A stretch of 23,703 bases of DNA, taken from a virus. The notes beneath the pieces were generated by a model. It made no database searches. It was given only the letters and a program-made list of their open reading frames with translations, and was not told where the DNA came from. Position numbers and translations under genes: made by a program. Location: the IMG/VR virus record IMGVR_UViG_3300020172_000522, positions 1 through 23,703 of that record; one strand, given 5' to 3'. Of the stretch, positions 796 to 10,060 are shown piece by piece (within the stretch, counting starts at the first letter, position 1; each line of letters starts with the position of its first letter).

Positions 796-962
796 AATAC
801 TTTGAAGATACACAAGAAGAAGCTATGGAAGCAATGTCTGCAGCAGTTGAAATGTTGCAAAAATCTAAACCTAGTTTTAACTCACTTGGGTATTTAACTA
901 CTAACGAATTAAAGTTTAGTGGTGGTCAAGTTCGACTTGGTAAGATTCCATACTTCAATTAA
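792..962 (+). CDS. Hypothetical small protein upstream of terL
   Basis: 56 residues (MKYFEDTQEEAMEAMSAAVE at the start, ending GKIPYFN). The ATG at 792 overlaps the HNH stop codon as ATGA, which indicates translational coupling. The N-terminal half looks like an acidic amphipathic helix; no recognised domain. It fills the gap between the HNH gene and the large terminase, so a real gene is more likely than chance, but its function is unknown. Confidence 0.55.
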   Translation: MKYFEDTQEEAMEAMSAAVEMLQKSKPSFNSLGYLTTNELKFSGGQVRLGKIPYFN

Positions 963-970
963 ACGCTCTC

Positions 971-1003
971 AGAGACGTCTGCGTGCCCCTACAAGGCGTC
1001 TCT
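971..1003 (+). terminator. Hairpin upstream of terL
   Basis: AGAGACGTC (971-979) pairs with GGCGTCTCT (995-1003), a 9-bp stem with one G-U pair and a 15-nt loop, followed by only two more T residues. It sits in the short gap between the upstream ORF and the terL ATG. It could be a weak terminator, an RNA-processing site or a structure that tunes terL translation. Confidence 0.4.
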
Positions 1004-1029
1004 TTACCTACTTAGGTATATTCTACCAT

Positions 1030-2760
1030 ATGGATACTTTAACCGCCCTTAAAAGCGATTTTAAACTCTTTCTTCAAGCACTGTGGTCTCAACTAGACCT
1101 ACCATCCCCAACACGAGCACAGTACGCCATTGCTGATTACCTACAACACGGTCCTAAGCGTCTACAGATCCAAGCCTTCCGAGGAGTCGGTAAGAGCTGG
1201 ATTACTGGAGCGTTTGTGTTGTGGACACTGTTCAACAACCCAGAGAAGAAGATCATGATCATCTCCGCTTCCAAAGAGCGAGCAGACAACATGTCGATCT
1301 TTCTTCAGAAGCTAATCATTGAAACACCCTGGCTATCACATTTGAGACCAAAGAGTGATGATGCCCGGTGGTCACGGATTAGCTTTGACGTTCTGTGTAG
1401 CCCTCACCAAGCCCCTTCCGTGAAGTCGGTGGGTATCACAGGTCAGCTCACTGGTAGCCGTGCAGACCTCATGATTCTAGACGACATTGAGGTTCCCGGC
1501 AACAGCATGACTGAGATGATGCGGGAGAAGCTTCTTCAGCTATGTACAGAAGCTGAGTCTATCTTAACACCAAAGAAAGACAGTCGTATTATGTTCCTAG
1601 GTACACCTCAAACTACCTTTACCATTTACCGTAAGCTAGCAGAGCGTAACTACAAGCCATTCGTTTGGCCAGCACGTTACCCACGTAAGCTATCTAACTA
1701 TGAAGGACTCCTTGCACCTCAAGTACAAGAAGACATCGAAGGTGGTATTGAAGCTTGGAGTGTAACAGACCCTGATCGCTTCTCTAACGATGACCTGGTA
1801 GAACGTGAAGCATCCATGGGTCGTAGTAACTTCATGCTTCAGTTCATGCTAGACACCAGTCTTAGTGATGCTGAGAAGTTCCCACTTAAGATGCAAGACC
1901 TAATCATTACCTCAGTTAACCCTAAGGAATGTCCTGATGCTGTGGTCTGGTGTAGTGATCCCAGTAATGTCATTAAAGACCTACCTACTGTTGGTCTACC
2001 GGGAGACTACTTCTACTCTCCAATGGTCATGCAAGGTGATTGGTTACCATACACAGAAACAATCTGCTCAGTAGACCCCTCTGGTAGAGGTACTGATGAA
2101 ACAGCTGCTTCCTTCCTTTCTCAACGTAATGGTTTCATCTATCTTCATGAAGTACGTGCTTACCAAGATGGTTACAGTGATGCTACCTTACTAGACATCC
2201 TTAGAGGTTGTAAAAAGTATGGTGTTACTAAACTCCTAATTGAGACAAACTTTGGTGATGGTATTGTTGGTGAACTCTTTAAGAAACACCTTCAACAAAC
2301 TAAGCAAGCAATAGACATCGAAGAGGTACGTGCCAATGTACGTAAAGAAGACCGAATTATTGATACTCTTGAACCTATTCTAAACCAACATAAACTGATT
2401 GTCAATAGAGCAGTTGTTGAATGGGACTTTAACTCCAATAAAGACGCAGCACCTGAAACAAGACTCCTATACATGCTCTTCTATCAGATGAGTCGTATGT
2501 GTCGTGAGAAGGGTGCAGTAAGACATGATGATAGACTTGATTCCCTAGCTCAAGGTGTTAAATACTTTACAGATGCTCTTGCTATATCAGCTTATGAGAC
2601 AGTCAAACTACGTAAGCAAGAAGACTGGAATGATCTTCAAGAAGCTTGGTTAGATGACCCCCAAGCAGCTGCTTCTCACATGGCATTTGGATTTAATTTA
2701 GACCAACGTAGACAAGCAAGACAACTAGCTGGTAAAAGTTCAGTCCCCACCTGGGTTTAA
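1030..2760 (+). CDS. terL: Terminase large subunit (T7 gp19-like)
   Basis: 576 residues against 586 for T7 gp19, collinear with it throughout. The N-terminal ATPase has a Walker A segment FRGVGKSW (Lys55), then ISASKERAD, SVKSVGITGQLTGSRAD and the Walker B stretch LMILDDIE (Asp151/152). The C-terminal nuclease carries VDPSGRGTDETA, ETNFGDG and HDDRLDSLAQG, supplying the acidic metal ligands. The protein powers DNA translocation into the prohead and cuts the concatemer. The frame is open back to 919, but the ATG at 1030 gives the T7-like N terminus (KSDFKLFLQALWSQLDLPSP), so I use it; no strong ribosome binding site is visible. Confidence 0.97.
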   Translation: MDTLTALKSDFKLFLQALWSQLDLPSPTRAQYAIADYLQHGPKRLQIQAFRGVGKSWITGAFVLWTLFNNPEKKIMIISASKERADNMSIFLQKLIIETPWLSHLRPKSDDARWSRISFDVLCSPHQAPSVKSVGITGQLTGSRADLMILDDIEVPGNSMTEMMREKLLQLCTEAESILTPKKDSRIMFLGTPQTTFTIYRKLAERNYKPFVWPARYPRKLSNYEGLLAPQVQEDIEGGIEAWSVTDPDRFSNDDLVEREASMGRSNFMLQFMLDTSLSDAEKFPLKMQDLIITSVNPKECPDAVVWCSDPSNVIKDLPTVGLPGDYFYSPMVMQGDWLPYTETICSVDPSGRGTDETAASFLSQRNGFIYLHEVRAYQDGYSDATLLDILRGCKKYGVTKLLIETNFGDGIVGELFKKHLQQTKQAIDIEEVRANVRKEDRIIDTLEPILNQHKLIVNRAVVEWDFNSNKDAAPETRLLYMLFYQMSRMCREKGAVRHDDRLDSLAQGVKYFTDALAISAYETVKLRKQEDWNDLQEAWLDDPQAAASHMAFGFNLDQRRQARQLAGKSSVPTWV

Positions 2761-3203: not shown

Positions 3204-3360
3204 TGAACAAAATGAGGTTTTACTAGCAGCAGTAGATCTTGTTAATGGTGGTATGGATATGGAAGAAGTTTTTCATGCCTACTCAACTATTGCTAAATAC
3301 GTTATCAATCACCCACCCACCAATAATGCACACAGCAACTCTTGTTCACATCACTCCTAA
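3181..3360 (+). CDS. Hypothetical small protein overlapping thyX start
   Basis: 59 residues opening MTTPNLTDEQNEVLLAAVDL. The first 45 residues read as a predicted helical, acidic segment. The last 15 or so (NHPPTNNAHSNSCSHHS) overlap the beginning of thyX and look like read-through of another frame. It fills the otherwise empty gap before thyX. A real gene is plausible; function is not recognisable. Confidence 0.5.
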   Translation: MTTPNLTDEQNEVLLAAVDLVNGGMDMEEVFHAYSTIAKYVINHPPTNNAHSNSCSHHS

Positions 3361-3967
3361 CGCTGAGGAACTTATTAGTTACATGGCTAGGGTAAGTAAC
3401 CCAGCTAATCAAAACAACACTGAGACCAGTGCTAAACTAATTAAGTATCTTATCGACCATCACCATTGGTCTCCCTTTGAGATGGTTAATATGTGTGTAG
3501 AGATTAATACAACACGGAGTGTAGCAGCACAGATCCTTAGGCATAGGTCCTTTAGCTTTCAGGAGTTTAGTCAACGGTATGCACAGGTAATTGAACCTGC
3601 AATGGTACCAGAACTGCGTAGGCAAGATACTAAGAATCGACAGAATAGTGTTGATGATCTGCCATACAAAACTAAAGATGTTATGTGTGAGATGATTAGT
3701 GAGTTGTTTGATCACTCGGAACGTGTTTATAATGAGCTGTTGGAAGCTGGGGTAGCTAAGGAGTGTGCAAGAGATGTACTACCACTAGCTACACCTACTC
3801 GGTTGTACATGAATGGTACGATTAGGTCTTGGTTGCACTACTGTGACCTACGTACAGCTCATGGTACACAGAAAGAACACGCACAGATAGCAGCACGAGT
3901 ACAAGATATTCTCTATTCGCAAATACCAAATGTTTGTGACGCAATGTGGAACAAGAACTTAAGCTGA
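3326..3967 (+). CDS. thyX: Flavin-dependent thymidylate synthase ThyX
   Basis: 213 residues, the usual ThyX length. The signature RHRxxSxxxxSxRY is present as RHRSFSFQEFSQRY (residues 72-85), and HHHWSPFEM and RDVLPLATPTRLYMNGTIRSW match the conserved flavin and dUMP regions. ThyX methylates dUMP to dTMP with FAD, NADPH and methylene-tetrahydrofolate as a homotetramer; phages use it to sustain dTTP during replication. The frame is open back to 3239, but the ATG at 3326 (MHTATLVHITPNAEE) gives the canonical N terminus, so the upstream extension is rejected. In the window it lies far from the other nucleotide genes (15-18.7 kb), close to the presumed right genome end. Confidence 0.96.
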   Translation: MHTATLVHITPNAEELISYMARVSNPANQNNTETSAKLIKYLIDHHHWSPFEMVNMCVEINTTRSVAAQILRHRSFSFQEFSQRYAQVIEPAMVPELRRQDTKNRQNSVDDLPYKTKDVMCEMISELFDHSERVYNELLEAGVAKECARDVLPLATPTRLYMNGTIRSWLHYCDLRTAHGTQKEHAQIAARVQDILYSQIPNVCDAMWNKNLS

Positions 3968-4245
3968 ATGAGTTTAAAGTCCTGTATAAGACTTGGAGGA
4001 GAGGTATTCCTTGGTTGGATCACTTGATTCTGGGTCTTTTGGTCTGGTTAGAAGGAAAGCTCATTGATTATCGTGTTAAAACGACGGTTGATGAAGCGAT
4101 TAAGGGGTGGGAAACGCTTCATGAAGTGCCTATGCCTGATATGGTGACTCCTGTTTATACAGAAAAGCCGTCAGAGGCGTCTACAAGCCTTCCTGAGATG
4201 CGTTTAACTGCTCCTTGGTATATTGACACTGTTGATAAGGAATAA
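3946..4245 (+). CDS. Hypothetical protein downstream of thyX
   Basis: 99 residues from a GTG at 3946 that overlaps the thyX end by 22 bp; no in-frame ATG is available near this position. The N-terminal half has a short hydrophobic stretch (WLDHLILGLLVWLEGKLI) that could be one membrane-associated helix. The C-terminal half is Pro/Glu/Thr-rich. No family recognised. It is the last gene before the non-coding genome-end region, where T7-like phages often keep small right-end genes. Confidence 0.65.
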   Translation: MEQELKLNEFKVLYKTWRRGIPWLDHLILGLLVWLEGKLIDYRVKTTVDEAIKGWETLHEVPMPDMVTPVYTEKPSEASTSLPEMRLTAPWYIDTVDKE

Positions 4246-4246
4246 C

Positions 4247-4280
4247 GCCTTTCTAGGTCATTCTGGAGGGGCTTTAGTTT
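4247..4280 (+). terminator. Possible terminator after the thyX block
   Basis: GCCTTTC (4247-4253) can pair with GAGGGGC (4266-4272), a 7-bp stem with two G-U pairs, followed by TTTAGTTTTT. It lies directly after the stop codon of the last right-end gene. The stem is weak, so the call is tentative. Confidence 0.35.
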
Positions 4281-4308
4281 TTGACAGAAATTTCTCAAGC
4301 CTTATACT
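4281..4308 (+). promoter_or_regulatory. Sigma70-like early promoter candidate 1
   Basis: TTGACA at 4281-4286, a 16-bp spacer, then TATACT at 4303-4308: a perfect -35 and a 5-of-6 -10. This is the strongest host-type promoter seen in the window. A transcript would begin near 4315 and run through the GC-rich island toward the early genes, as from the T7 A1-A3 promoters. Confidence 0.65.
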
Positions 4309-4329
4309 ACGCTGGAGCAGCGACGCAGA

Positions 4330-4374
4330 CCCCCATAGGGGTACCCCCGGATCACGCGAGCGCACACCCGGGGG
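4330..4374 (+). repeat. GC-rich nested palindrome cluster
   Basis: Three overlapping inverted repeats compete for the same bases: CCCC-ATA-GGGG (4331-4341), the perfect palindrome GGGGTACCCC (4338-4347), and CCCCCGG (4344-4350) pairing with CCGGGGG (4368-4374) around a 17-nt loop. The base composition is far more GC-rich than the surrounding coding DNA. It lies at the predicted 5' end of the transcript from the 4281-4308 promoter. Confidence 0.6.
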
Positions 4375-4712
4375 CAGGCACATGTACGCACCTGAGGGCG
4401 TGTAGACGCAGCCACTACGCACCCACGCACACATACATACACGCTACAGATGCACGCACGAGAGGCAGCAACTATGCGGCAAGACGCATAACCACATCTC
4501 ACACATCTGTAGAAATTCTCATTAACAAACCTTATTGAGAACCCAGTGATACCAATGGATCACAGCCGTCACAAACTGTAATGTAACAAAATATCACGGA
4601 ACGCCACACCTGACTTGGCACCATGCCATACTGTGTACATGAGCGGCAAGGACCGGAACGCCACCGGGTAGACCTGCCTCTCATAGCCACTCACAGAAGT
4701 GGCACACCACAC

Positions 4713-4741
4713 TTGACAAACCGCCTTTCACCGGTTACAGT
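4713..4741 (+). promoter_or_regulatory. Sigma70-like early promoter candidate 2
   Basis: TTGACA at 4713-4718, an optimal 17-bp spacer, then TACAGT at 4736-4741 (4 of 6 consensus bases). It follows a GCCACT/AGTGGC hairpin at 4686-4703. It would transcribe the early gene array. Confidence 0.5.
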
Positions 4742-4835
4742 GAGAGCATCGAACCTAGACAACTGAATAACACACGCCGTTAGCGGAGCAACCGCTAGAT
4801 CTCGACAAGCAGCATGGGTCAGTGACTGCGAGGCG

Positions 4836-4844
4836 TGGTATACT
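4836..4844 (+). promoter_or_regulatory. Extended -10 promoter candidate 3
   Basis: TGGTATACT is an extended -10 element (TGn followed by TATACT at 4839-4844). No good -35 is seen at 16-18 bp upstream, which an extended -10 can tolerate. It lies 65-83 bp upstream of the first early gene. Confidence 0.4.
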
Positions 4845-4882
4845 TACAGCCGAGCAACAGGCATGTTAGATCATTGCACTCT

Positions 4883-4903
4883 GCCTGCAAGGACGCAGGC
4901 TTT
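4883..4903 (+). terminator. Terminator-like hairpin before the first early gene
   Basis: GCCTGC (4883-4888) and GCAGGC (4895-4900) form a perfect 6-bp GC-rich stem with a 6-nt loop, followed by TTT. It could attenuate early transcription or mark the 3' end of a small RNA made from the upstream promoters. The T-run is short. Confidence 0.45.
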
Positions 4904-4926
4904 CTGCAGTGTTCAACGCTGCTTCG

Positions 4927-5244
4927 ATGGCGACTAGCCATCACCTATCCACCTACGGACAACACATCGTGACTGACAACACCTACAACGGCTGGGCAAA
5001 TCGTGAGACCTGGGCCATTGGCCTACATCTCATGGACACAGTGGTTGATTGGATCAATGATGACATTGATTCATGGTCCAAGGATGACACCAAGGACGCA
5101 GCCGTACTGTTTCAAGATCTAGTTGCAGAACAAATTGAGGGGGCAGAACTTTCTACCTTCCCATTGCTGCTTGATCTTCTCGATTTGTCTTTCGTTAACT
5201 GGCAAGAACTAGGGCAAAGTGCCCTGGATTCTGTCTTTGATTGA
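4927..5244 (+). CDS. Early protein with NGWxNxETW motif
   Basis: 105 residues from the ATG at 4927; a GTG at 4909 in the same frame would add six residues. The core YNGWANRETWAIGLHLMD resembles a motif found in small phage proteins of unknown function. The rest is acidic and helical, with many Asp and Leu residues. It is the first gene after the early promoters, a position typical for host-takeover proteins such as T7 gp0.3 (a DNA mimic). Acidity makes a mimic conceivable, but that is inference. A strong terminator follows at 5259-5286, so this gene may be expressed separately from the rest of the array. Confidence 0.7.
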   Translation: MATSHHLSTYGQHIVTDNTYNGWANRETWAIGLHLMDTVVDWINDDIDSWSKDDTKDAAVLFQDLVAEQIEGAELSTFPLLLDLLDLSFVNWQELGQSALDSVFD

Positions 5245-7624: not shown

Positions 7625-7721
7625 GCAATTCGAAGAGTTCAGTGAGCAGTACCCTGAGCTTGCACAACTTGTATGTCTTGAAGAGGTAGAGTTGCCTATT
7701 GATTGGTTGGAGGATAACTGA
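7605..7721 (+). CDS. Very small acidic protein upstream of RNA polymerase
   Basis: 38 residues (MTILTTEQFEEFSEQYPELA, then QLVCLEEVELPIDWLEDN), with about 11 acidic residues and no Lys or Arg. The TGA overlaps the ATG of the RNA polymerase gene (ATG at 7721), and TTGGAGG near its end provides the polymerase ribosome binding site, so it may be a coupling leader. The acidity would fit a small binder or inhibitor, which is inference. Confidence 0.5.
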   Translation: MTILTTEQFEEFSEQYPELAQLVCLEEVELPIDWLEDN

Positions 7722-10060
7722 TGCCTACACCTGCTCAGATTGATGAACAGGTGCAGCTTGAGCGTGACCAAATACGTCAAGGTCTCAAGCGATTAAGGGA
7801 TAACACGGACGCACTGCAGCAAAAGAGCTATGCATCTGCTACGGTGTATGGTGTAGTTTCTATTGATCTTCTTCTTCCAGTACTTGTCAAACGTATTGAA
7901 GATACCAACCATCGAATACATGAGAGAAAGAATGGTGTAGCATTCAAAGAGATTGCACAATACATTAGTGGTCTAGAGCCTCTTGCTGCTGCTGCTATTG
8001 CACTGAAGCTTACCTTTGATAAGGTCTTCAGTTACAAGGATGGTAGTGATCAGGTGCAATCAGTATGTGATGCAATTGGTTCAGCTGTTGAGGCTGAATG
8101 TCAGATGCGTTACTATGAGCGATGTGCACCTGGTCTTCTCACTACCTTGAAGAAGAACTATTGGCATAGGTCGTCAGGTACTCAGCAGCGATTAACATCT
8201 ATCAAAACGTTGATGAACCGCAAGGATATTCAACGTTGGCAAGCATGGGGTAGAGCTAACCGCATCAAGTTAGGTGGATGGTTGCTTGACTGTATCATTG
8301 AGACATCACAGTGGTTCACCAAGGACCTACGCAGAGAGGGTAAGAGAACAGTTAACTACATCATCCCAACACCTGAGTTCATCTCAATCAAAGACAAGGT
8401 GATGGCTGATGCCGAGCTATTTGCGCCACTTGCATGGCCAATGCTCATCGAACCTAACGATTGGACAAACGAGCGAGCTGGTGGCTACATACTCAATGAG
8501 GTAATGCGAGGGCATGATCTGGTACGTAGGGGCAACCCCACCCGTATACAGGGAGAAACACCGATCAATTTTCTGAACAAGATTCAGAAGGTTGCCTTTA
8601 CTCTGAACCCCTTCACAGTGCAAGTTGCTGAGGAGCTGGAAAGGTTAGGAAGAGAGGTTGGAAAGTTTCTACCTGTTGTACAGCATGAGTTACCACCAAA
8701 GCCTGTTGATATTGCAGAGAACCGAGAGGCTCGCAAGACATACAACAGAGCAGCTACTCATGTACAAGACTTGCAGCATCAAGAGCACAAGAAATCTTGT
8801 CGCACTCGCATGACAATGGAGGCAGTGAATAGATTCAAGGACGTAGCTAGGTTCTACATTCCTTGGAGCTTTGACTATAGAGGAAGAGCTTATCCTATCC
8901 CTGCCTTTCTTACTCCTCAGGATACTGACTTTGGAAAAAGTTTATTGATCTTTGCTGATGGGTCTTTTATGACTCCTGAAGCAGAGGAGTGGTTAGCCTT
9001 TCAAGTAGCTACTACATTTGGTCTTGATAAAGCACCAATGACTGAGCGTCTTGAATGGGCAAGAAATAACCATGAATTGTTCACACTCATATCACAAGAT
9101 CCCATTGGTAACTTACACCTGTGGGAAGAAGTTGAAGAACCTTGGCAGTTTTTAGCTGCTGCTGAAGAGTACTACCATTGTGTCGTAGCTGCTGATAGGC
9201 AGTTCACACGTCTTATGGTGGCAACTGATGCTACTTGTTCAGGGTTACAAATCCTGGCAGGACTAGCTAGGGATAAGTCCACTGCACGTCTTGTGAATGT
9301 CCTACCTGGTGATAAACCACAGGATGCATATAAGGTGGTTGCTGAAACAGCTACTCCTCACTGTCCTGAGTCTATCCAACCTTACATGGATAGGAAGACA
9401 GTTAAGCGTGTCGTAATGACCGTACCTTATAATGCTAAACCATTCTCAAATCGTGGGTACATCAGAGACGCACTGGCTGAGAAAGGTGTAGAGATTAGTA
9501 AGGAAGACCTCACTGCAACAGTTAAGGCAGTACGCAATGCCATGGATGTGGTCGTACCTGGTCCTATGGCTGTCATGAAATGGATTGAGGAAGAAGTAGC
9601 TGAGGCTATCAAAGCTGGTAAAGAGTATCTTGAGTGGACAACACCATCAGGGTTTGTTGTACACCAGAAGCTAAACAAGAAGCTTGTTGTGTCTATTGAA
9701 TTACAACTGCTAGGTCGTTGTAAGATGAGTGTCGCAGTTGATGATTCTGATGAGGTTGATCTCAACCATCACAAGAACGCAACAGCTCCTAACCTAATTC
9801 ACAGTTTAGATGCTAGCTTGCTACACTTTAGTGCTTTAAACTTTGACGCACCCATTGCTCTTATCCATGATTCTGTCCTTTGTCGTGCAACGGACATGTC
9901 CACCTTGTCTTCTATTGTTCGACAAACATACATGCACCTGTTCGCAGAGCATGATTACCTAAAAGACTTTGCTTCTCACATTGGAGCAAAGACTGAACCA
10001 CCGATTGTTGGAGACCTTGAACCGGAATCCGTAATCGAATCCACCTACTTTTTCTGTTAA
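7721..10060 (+). CDS. Single-subunit DNA-dependent RNA polymerase (T7 gp1-like)
   Basis: 779 residues against 883 in T7. All catalytic elements are present: motif A VATDATCSGLQ with Asp503 (T7 Asp537), the fingers segment KRVVMTVPYN with Lys562 and Tyr570 (T7 Lys631 and Tyr639), and motif C IALIHDSVL with Asp717 (T7 Asp812). The C terminus ends in aromatic residues (STYFFC) like the functional foot of T7 polymerase. It transcribes middle and late phage genes from its own promoters. The start overlaps the preceding stop. A candidate phage promoter lies inside the gene at 8533-8557. The next gene (SSB) starts within its stop (TAATG). Confidence 0.97.
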   Translation: MPTPAQIDEQVQLERDQIRQGLKRLRDNTDALQQKSYASATVYGVVSIDLLLPVLVKRIEDTNHRIHERKNGVAFKEIAQYISGLEPLAAAAIALKLTFDKVFSYKDGSDQVQSVCDAIGSAVEAECQMRYYERCAPGLLTTLKKNYWHRSSGTQQRLTSIKTLMNRKDIQRWQAWGRANRIKLGGWLLDCIIETSQWFTKDLRREGKRTVNYIIPTPEFISIKDKVMADAELFAPLAWPMLIEPNDWTNERAGGYILNEVMRGHDLVRRGNPTRIQGETPINFLNKIQKVAFTLNPFTVQVAEELERLGREVGKFLPVVQHELPPKPVDIAENREARKTYNRAATHVQDLQHQEHKKSCRTRMTMEAVNRFKDVARFYIPWSFDYRGRAYPIPAFLTPQDTDFGKSLLIFADGSFMTPEAEEWLAFQVATTFGLDKAPMTERLEWARNNHELFTLISQDPIGNLHLWEEVEEPWQFLAAAEEYYHCVVAADRQFTRLMVATDATCSGLQILAGLARDKSTARLVNVLPGDKPQDAYKVVAETATPHCPESIQPYMDRKTVKRVVMTVPYNAKPFSNRGYIRDALAEKGVEISKEDLTATVKAVRNAMDVVVPGPMAVMKWIEEEVAEAIKAGKEYLEWTTPSGFVVHQKLNKKLVVSIELQLLGRCKMSVAVDDSDEVDLNHHKNATAPNLIHSLDASLLHFSALNFDAPIALIHDSVLCRATDMSTLSSIVRQTYMHLFAEHDYLKDFASHIGAKTEPPIVGDLEPESVIESTYFFC
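8533..8557 (+). promoter_or_regulatory. Putative phage RNA polymerase promoter (copy 2), inside the RNAP gene
   Basis: CAACCCCACCCGTATACAGG (8533-8552) followed by GAGAA matches 2764-2783 at 19 of 20 bases. The GGGAGA at the downstream end also recalls the initial transcribed bases of T7 promoters. It would drive the replication genes (SSB, endonuclease, primase, polymerase), as T7 class II promoters do. It overlaps codons for NPTRIQGET, so coding constraint is the alternative explanation. Confidence 0.5.

Follow-up and report, generated by a model that had tools for sequence, protein, structure and literature searches.

The window analysed here is a 23,703-nt stretch of DNA comprising positions 1 to 23,703 of IMG/VR virus record IMGVR_UViG_3300020172_000522, and its source is a T7-like cyanophage (cyanopodovirus). 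Genes of the right end of the genome, including terL and thyX, are followed in the window by an early region of small genes with a phage RNA polymerase downstream (Table 1), and about 660 bases in which no clear gene is found separate the gene ending at 4245 from the small early genes. This gap contains a GC-rich island (4315-4490) with a GC content of 63.1%, as against 45.3% for the window as a whole. The GC-richest stretch of 176 bases in the window begins at 4310 and thus coincides with the island, give or take five bases, and the arrangement C4-(2 to 6 nt)-G4 occurs on the plus strand of the window only in the island. A position between the right-end genes and the early region is that of a direct terminal repeat (DTR), and the window encodes both a T7-type RNA polymerase (phrog_414) and a terminase (phrog_38), as is expected of a phage with DTRs.

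Table 1. Genes and sequence features at the predicted concatemer junction of the window.
Feature	Position	Strand	Details
Terminase large subunit (terL)	919-2760	+	Last conserved right-end gene; phrog_38, E 3.9e-115
Thymidylate synthase (thyX)	3239-3967	+	Right-end gene; phrog_85, E 6e-78
Small right-end gene	3946-4245	+	phrog_22672, E 5.1e-44
Terminator-like stem and T-run	4247-4272	+	3' of the last right-end gene
Left-cut block TTTGACAGAAATTTCTCAAGCCTT	4280-4303	+	Also readable as a sigma70-like promoter (4281-4308)
Sigma70-like promoter, TTGACA-16-TATACT	4281-4308	+	Coincides with the left-cut block
Predicted DTR	4304-4504	+	About 201 bp, one collapsed copy; from alignment to the DTRs of P-SSP7, Syn5, S-TIP37 and T7
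C-run with optional hairpin, CCCCC-ATA-GGGG	4330-4341	+	CCCCC 4330-4334, GGGG 4338-4341; DTR positions about 27-38
Palindrome GGGGTACCCC	4338-4347	strand-neutral	Retained in closest relatives only
Third stem, CCCCCGG/CCGGGGG	4344-4374	+	Arms 4344-4350 and 4368-4374; unconserved
Alternating purine-pyrimidine tract	about 4419-4460
Hairpin before right end	4473-4490	+	Broken or replaced by other hairpins in some relatives
ATCTGT	4505-4510	+	Directly 3' of the predicted DTR right end; sole sense copy in the window
Second promoter-like site, TTGACA-17-TACAGT	4713-4741	+	Just right of the terminal repeat
Conserved leader pseudoknot (H-type)	4849-4877	+	Separate from the island
Phage single-subunit RNA polymerase	7721-10060	+	phrog_414, E 1.4e-218

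The stems, the palindrome, the alternating tract and the 4473-4490 hairpin were all found where the original prediction had placed them, and the sharp difference in composition from the surroundings that it described is evident in the GC values above. The stems had also been described as mutually exclusive, which is correct in part: the GGGGTACCCC palindrome competes with both of the other stems, whereas the first and third stems can form together and are both present in the minimum-energy folds of the RNA and of the DNA. The island folds only mildly beyond chance, with z scores of -1.95 as RNA (6 of 200 shuffles equally or more stable) and -1.93 as DNA (5 of 200).

A comparison of the locus with phages of defined ends shows a common arrangement. 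Exact DTR lengths could be read from the records of T7 (160 bp), SP6 (174 bp), P-SSP7 (206 bp), Syn5 (237 bp), S-TIP37 (150 bp), T3 (231 bp), and gh-1 (216 bp). The first run of at least four C residues lies at DTR bases 25-33 in each of nine Autographiviridae records whose ends are defined (T7, T3, SP6, K1F, gh-1, phiKMV, P-SSP7, Syn5, and S-TIP37), and a block resembling the left-cut block of the window precedes the true ends of T7, Syn5, P-SSP7, S-TIP37, and gh-1. At the other boundary, ATCTGT stands immediately 3' of the repeat in T7, T3, Syn5, and S-TIP37. P-SSP7 has ACCTGT after the repeat, the motif is offset by 1 nt in SP6, the gh-1 repeat boundary falls between two copies of ATCTGT, and in the part of K1F examined, the left part, ATCTGT is found at 180; the annotated end of phiKMV has the C-run and no ATCTGT. 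The elements of the window come in the same order as at these true ends: first the left block TTTGACAGAAATTTCTCAAGCCTT, then a C-run whose last base is 4334, then ATCTGT at 4505. Alignment to P-SSP7, Syn5, and S-TIP37 places the predicted left end at 4303-4306, taken here as 4304 with an uncertainty of 1-3 nt, so that the C-run lies 27-31 bases inside it with the left-cut block upstream. The right boundary at 4504 was itself predicted from ATCTGT, and the adjacency of the two is thus not independent evidence. A second copy of the repeat is absent from the 23.7-kb record, so its duplication is not directly visible here; a single copy would be expected of a contig that crosses the concatemer junction.

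As contigs stop at many places, contig ends were used as evidence of DTR ends for one metagenomic relative alone, G009 (44,137 bases), which carries both copies of the repeat (157 of 158 positions identical). At the right this contig terminates on the base immediately preceding ATCTGT, and at the left it begins within a few bases of the predicted cut. An exact right boundary before ATCTGT is seen in four phages and one metagenomic relative.

Relatives of the window were fetched through the right-end gene phrog_22672 (24 loci) and through the terminase (at least 80 loci). S-CBP4 is a cultured relative with this junction. The left block together with the C-run is present in 83 of the 107 loci examined, and the distance from the block to the end of the C-run is 46-49 nt in 81 of those 83. 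The left block was missing from 24 of the 107; most of these 24 are contigs that end too early, but L197 and L220 are not. A[TC]CTGT occurs within 330 nt in 66 of the 69 loci with enough DNA (ATCTGT in 60, ACCTGT in 6), compared to 11.6% of random 270-nt windows, a proportion inflated by the survey script, which favoured candidates with ATCTGT downstream; the spacing is the cleaner result. Three loci (L186, L221, and L237) have no A[TC]CTGT within 330 nt, and L186 has ATCTGTA slightly beyond. The surveyed loci and genomes are related, and these counts are not independent.

A 66-nt profile trained on 50 cyanophage junctions, with T7 and Syn5 not in the training set, ranks the true left cut first in the whole genomes of both T7 (79,742 windows scanned) and Syn5 (92,296). 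The profile also performs best at the true cut in the end pieces of S-TIP37, gh-1, and SP6 (weakly in SP6, at -5.9), and its best match is 1-2 bases off the true cut in P-SSP7 and T3 (2 nt, and weak, in T3). The junction described here scores 55.7, the best in the window, which is itself one of the 50 training rows. Among the listed matches to the pattern CCCCATAGGGG-N1-2-ACC, those in isolates with true ends fall at positions 28-42, and the other listed matches look mostly like chance.

Given its position, the conserved block with its constant spacing, the match to the true ends of other phages, and the strand-specific loss of ATCTGT discussed below, the island is very probably the direct terminal repeat of a T7-like cyanopodovirus, processed by the cutting scheme we propose. 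The suggestion that it could be a packaging signal or part of a terminal repeat is thus strongly supported, and the island (4315-4490) falls wholly inside the predicted DTR. The lack of a genome end in this interval, which the original prediction named as an outcome that would refute it, is not what the evidence indicates.

The distribution of ATCTGT is strongly asymmetric. Besides the sense copy at 4505, the window contains 16 antisense copies. We searched 30 cyanopodovirus records whole (13, Syn5, and 16 others, several of the last being fragments); exactly one sense copy is present in 29 of them, accompanied by 9-27 antisense copies, and wherever its position was listed or fetched this lone sense copy is the junction copy. 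In 409,896 nt from 54 non-redundant loci, with mapped junctions masked, sense ATCTGT was counted 10 times against 74.5 expected, the strongest deficit among 4034 6-mers once 5-mer content is corrected for. Antisense ATCTGT is over-represented in the same sequences (275 against 219.6), as might be seen if the sense-strand rarity arose from codon or amino-acid usage rather than from polymerase pausing. Consistent with some such contribution, the deficit shrinks when synonymous codons are shuffled, and the strand bias of 1:20 must be partly a product of coding. The shuffles nevertheless predict 4.4 sense copies where the window has 0 and 6.0 where Syn5 has 1 (5 of 500 shuffles as low in each case), and 6.3 where T7 has 2 (12 of 500), confirming a milder but real deficit. 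Codon usage also fits poorly with the rank of ATCTGT among 5-mer-corrected 6-mers and with the location of the surviving copy at the junction, and we regard it as quite unlikely to be the explanation.

In P-SSP7 there are 0 sense and 41 antisense copies of ATCTGT. Its repeat ends at ACCTGTT, yet avoidance of ATCTGT persists despite this different junction motif; ACCTGT itself is not avoided in this phage, with 11 sense copies. SP6, T3, K1F, gh-1, and phiKMV do not avoid the 6-mer. Each of T7, T3, SP6, and Syn5 has a single sense copy of the 7-mer ATCTGTT, located at the DTR end, and gh-1, phiKMV, and K1F have one or two sense copies away from their ends.

T7-type RNA polymerases have a class II signal for pausing or termination, ATCTGTT, which is described as present at the phage concatemer junction (PMC11617373). 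When transcribing a cas9 template that carries such a site, the T7 and Syn5 polymerases were reported to give truncated RNA, with the stop mapped for T7 (PMC9624206). A single promoter of the Syn5 polymerase is reported to serve more than 37 kb (PMC3950665), and stray pause sites would therefore be costly. The window shares the ATCTGT core of the class II signal, but an A follows and there is no U-run; pausing at this site is predicted.

In T7, polymerase pausing is coupled to terminase cutting at the concatemer junction. By analogy, replication of the cyanophage would presumably yield head-to-tail concatemers in which a single repeat separates neighbouring genomes, and late transcription would cross the joined genomes. 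The phage RNA polymerase, presumably the one encoded at 7721-10060, would read ATCTGT on the sense strand and pause there, and terminase would cut the right end directly before ATCTGT, at the paused polymerase. The left end would be made at the conserved AT-rich block, which a protein of the packaging machinery may read together with the C-run 25-33 bases inside. We consider it likely that ATCTGT serves as a one-per-genome, one-strand stop-and-cut mark, that selection has confined pausing to the junction, where it sets the right end, and that the signal for the left cut is the same from T7 to the marine cyanophages. Searches of the open-licence PMC literature found no report of ATCTGT avoidance and none of a shared left-end signal.

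What is recognized at the left end could be the C-run or a structure that it forms. Among 51 non-redundant junctions, a C3/G3 hairpin at the C-run is present in 33 (20% expected) and a C4/G4 hairpin in 27 (6% expected from shuffled tails). This excess would agree with a packaging enzyme that requires the hairpin itself, as a DNA hairpin or cruciform with its G partner on either side, and some junctions lacking a 3' G-run do carry a 5' one. The tendency to switch sides is weak (Fisher p 0.14 for G3 and 0.047 for G4), and neither side has a partner in 5 of 50 and 9 of 50 junctions, respectively; these counts, like the profile, leave out one junction (L176) mis-registered on an earlier C-run, which is kept among the 51. 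T3 moreover has C8-ATAG-C4, which forms no stem. A requirement for the hairpin thus appears doubtful, and a shared hairpin with switched arms was rejected as a firm claim on the two p values. The C-run is the constant element, with a hairpin favoured and not needed.

The original prediction also raised a structured early leader RNA or switch, transcribed from the 4281-4308 promoter, whose alternative stems would regulate the early genes. That the island begins where a transcript of the strongest promoter would begin holds true, as TTGACA-16-TATACT implies a start at about 4315, and the quality of this promoter-like site (11 of 12), the z score of the RNA fold, and the excess of C4/G4 hairpins over shuffled tails could all be read in favour of a leader. 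The pairings themselves are poorly conserved, however, an outcome that the original prediction had named as refuting it: the third stem is interrupted by a mispair in L013, the closest relative, and missing from others, partners of the stems are altered or lost among relatives, and alternative pairings of the kind an RNA switch would conserve are absent or broken. Even a C3/G3 stem is wanting in 18 of the 51 junctions, as it is in T3 and Syn5, and the first and third stems are not alternatives to one another. The -35 box of the promoter lies upstream of the predicted left cut and outside the DTR, and Syn5 has no such promoter at the corresponding block. Rfam covariance models gave no match in the window at the gathering score, with only two sub-threshold ones at 4240-4960, and a known Rfam RNA or tRNA was rejected as the identity of the island. 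A leader or switch built from the named stems was rejected because they are unconserved and the promoter is cut off, and a role for the island as leader RNA is highly improbable. The original interpretation is thus supported in its terminal repeat and packaging part and fails as a leader RNA or switch.

The left cut would split the 4281-4308 promoter, so that virion DNA would lack it at the left end; the promoter could therefore not start an early transcript on injected DNA. The site at 4713-4741, which implies a transcript start near 4748, is a candidate for the true early promoter on the left end. A similar TTGACA-17-TATGGT is found in S-CBP1 (L006, about 2954). A search for the Syn5 promoter ATTGGGCACCCGTAA that tolerated up to 3 mismatches found nothing in the window.

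Any structured leader in this region would be the pseudoknot at 4849-4877, which shows strong covariation, and not the island. Its stem (4849-4851/4860-4862) encloses an 8-base loop of the form GAGCCACA, GAGCAACA in the window, in which GCAA (4854-4857) pairs with UUGC of the tail (4874-4877). Across 29 sequences, 95% of cells pair and both sides change in 6 of 9 pairs, which 0 of 500 shuffles reach, and three loop types each occur with a matching tail (GCCA/UGGC, GCAA/UUGC, and GCCU/AGGC). The pseudoknot is found in many cyanopodoviruses, with a stem of 3-7 bp, the loop GAGCCACA and the tail CATGGC, including positions L006:3139, L004:4582, L008:568, L003:4566, and L238:594. A stem of at least 3 bp is present in 11 of 117 pattern matches checked, among the matches listed, and Rfam gave no match to the pseudoknot, either in the window or across seven loci. 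Upstream of it, at about 4770-4840 in the window, the leader seems to fold into a closed domain with several branches, also at L006:3045-3120 and L003:4470-4550. The outer stem differs and yet stays paired (CACTCGT/ACGAGTG in S-CBP1, TAGGTCGT/ACGACCTA in DSL-LC07), and whole sequence types of this region are swapped among relatives.

Several other features of these ends were observed. Repeats of the TTATTGAGAA type are found at 4516-4541 of the window (TTCTCATTAA/TTATTGAGAA) and recur in or just past the end repeat of many relatives and of Syn5. An IMG/VR contig of 48,683 bases (G015; loci L032 and L374) has two different junctions, at contig position 2596 and at its right end, and is probably either chimeric or wrapped round onto a second strain. 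The 127-bp repeat annotated at 1-127 of S-B28 (MK016662; L243) overlaps coding sequence, and the other end of that record lies at terL with no such junction; this repeat may be an assembly overlap.

The genomes of T7-like phages are described as usually assembling as circles, with loss of the true ends (PMC3350473). A short conserved signature marking both ends would allow assembled cyanophage genomes to be oriented and correctly closed, and, if the left-cut signal is indeed the same from T7 to the marine cyanophages, the genome ends of the family could be read from sequence alone. The near-total loss of sense ATCTGT suggests that junction pausing, as studied in T7, has an ancient role in packaging among marine T7-like phages and is under strong selection, and the coupling of transcription to packaging becomes a question testable with one motif.

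Like the window, T7 has its junction between the terL side and the early region, a C-run (bases 26-30, within CCCCCATAGGGGGTACC), a left block before the cut (ACCATAAAAATCTGAGTGACTA), and a right end directly before the motif, where ATCTGTT is its only sense copy of the 7-mer. The repeat of the window is predicted to be about 201 bp rather than 160 bp, its motif reads ATCTGTA rather than ATCTGTT, and the CCTAAAG repeats of T7 are absent from it; the cyanophages avoid the 6-mer ATCTGT, whereas T7 avoids only the 7-mer. P-SSP7, the ends of which were determined by sequencing, shares with the window a C-run (27-31, with CCCCCGTAGGGGGG) in its 206-bp DTR, and the start of that DTR, TATACGATG, resembles ATACTACG of the window; the passages on these ends in PMC3350473 describe no boundary motif. 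Unlike the window, P-SSP7 has ACCTGTT after the repeat and lacks sense ATCTGT altogether. The C-run of Syn5 (25-30), unlike that of the window, has no C/G hairpin, but its 237-bp DTR is, as in the window, directly followed by the motif, here ATCTGTTCG, which holds the sole sense ATCTGT in 46,214 nt.
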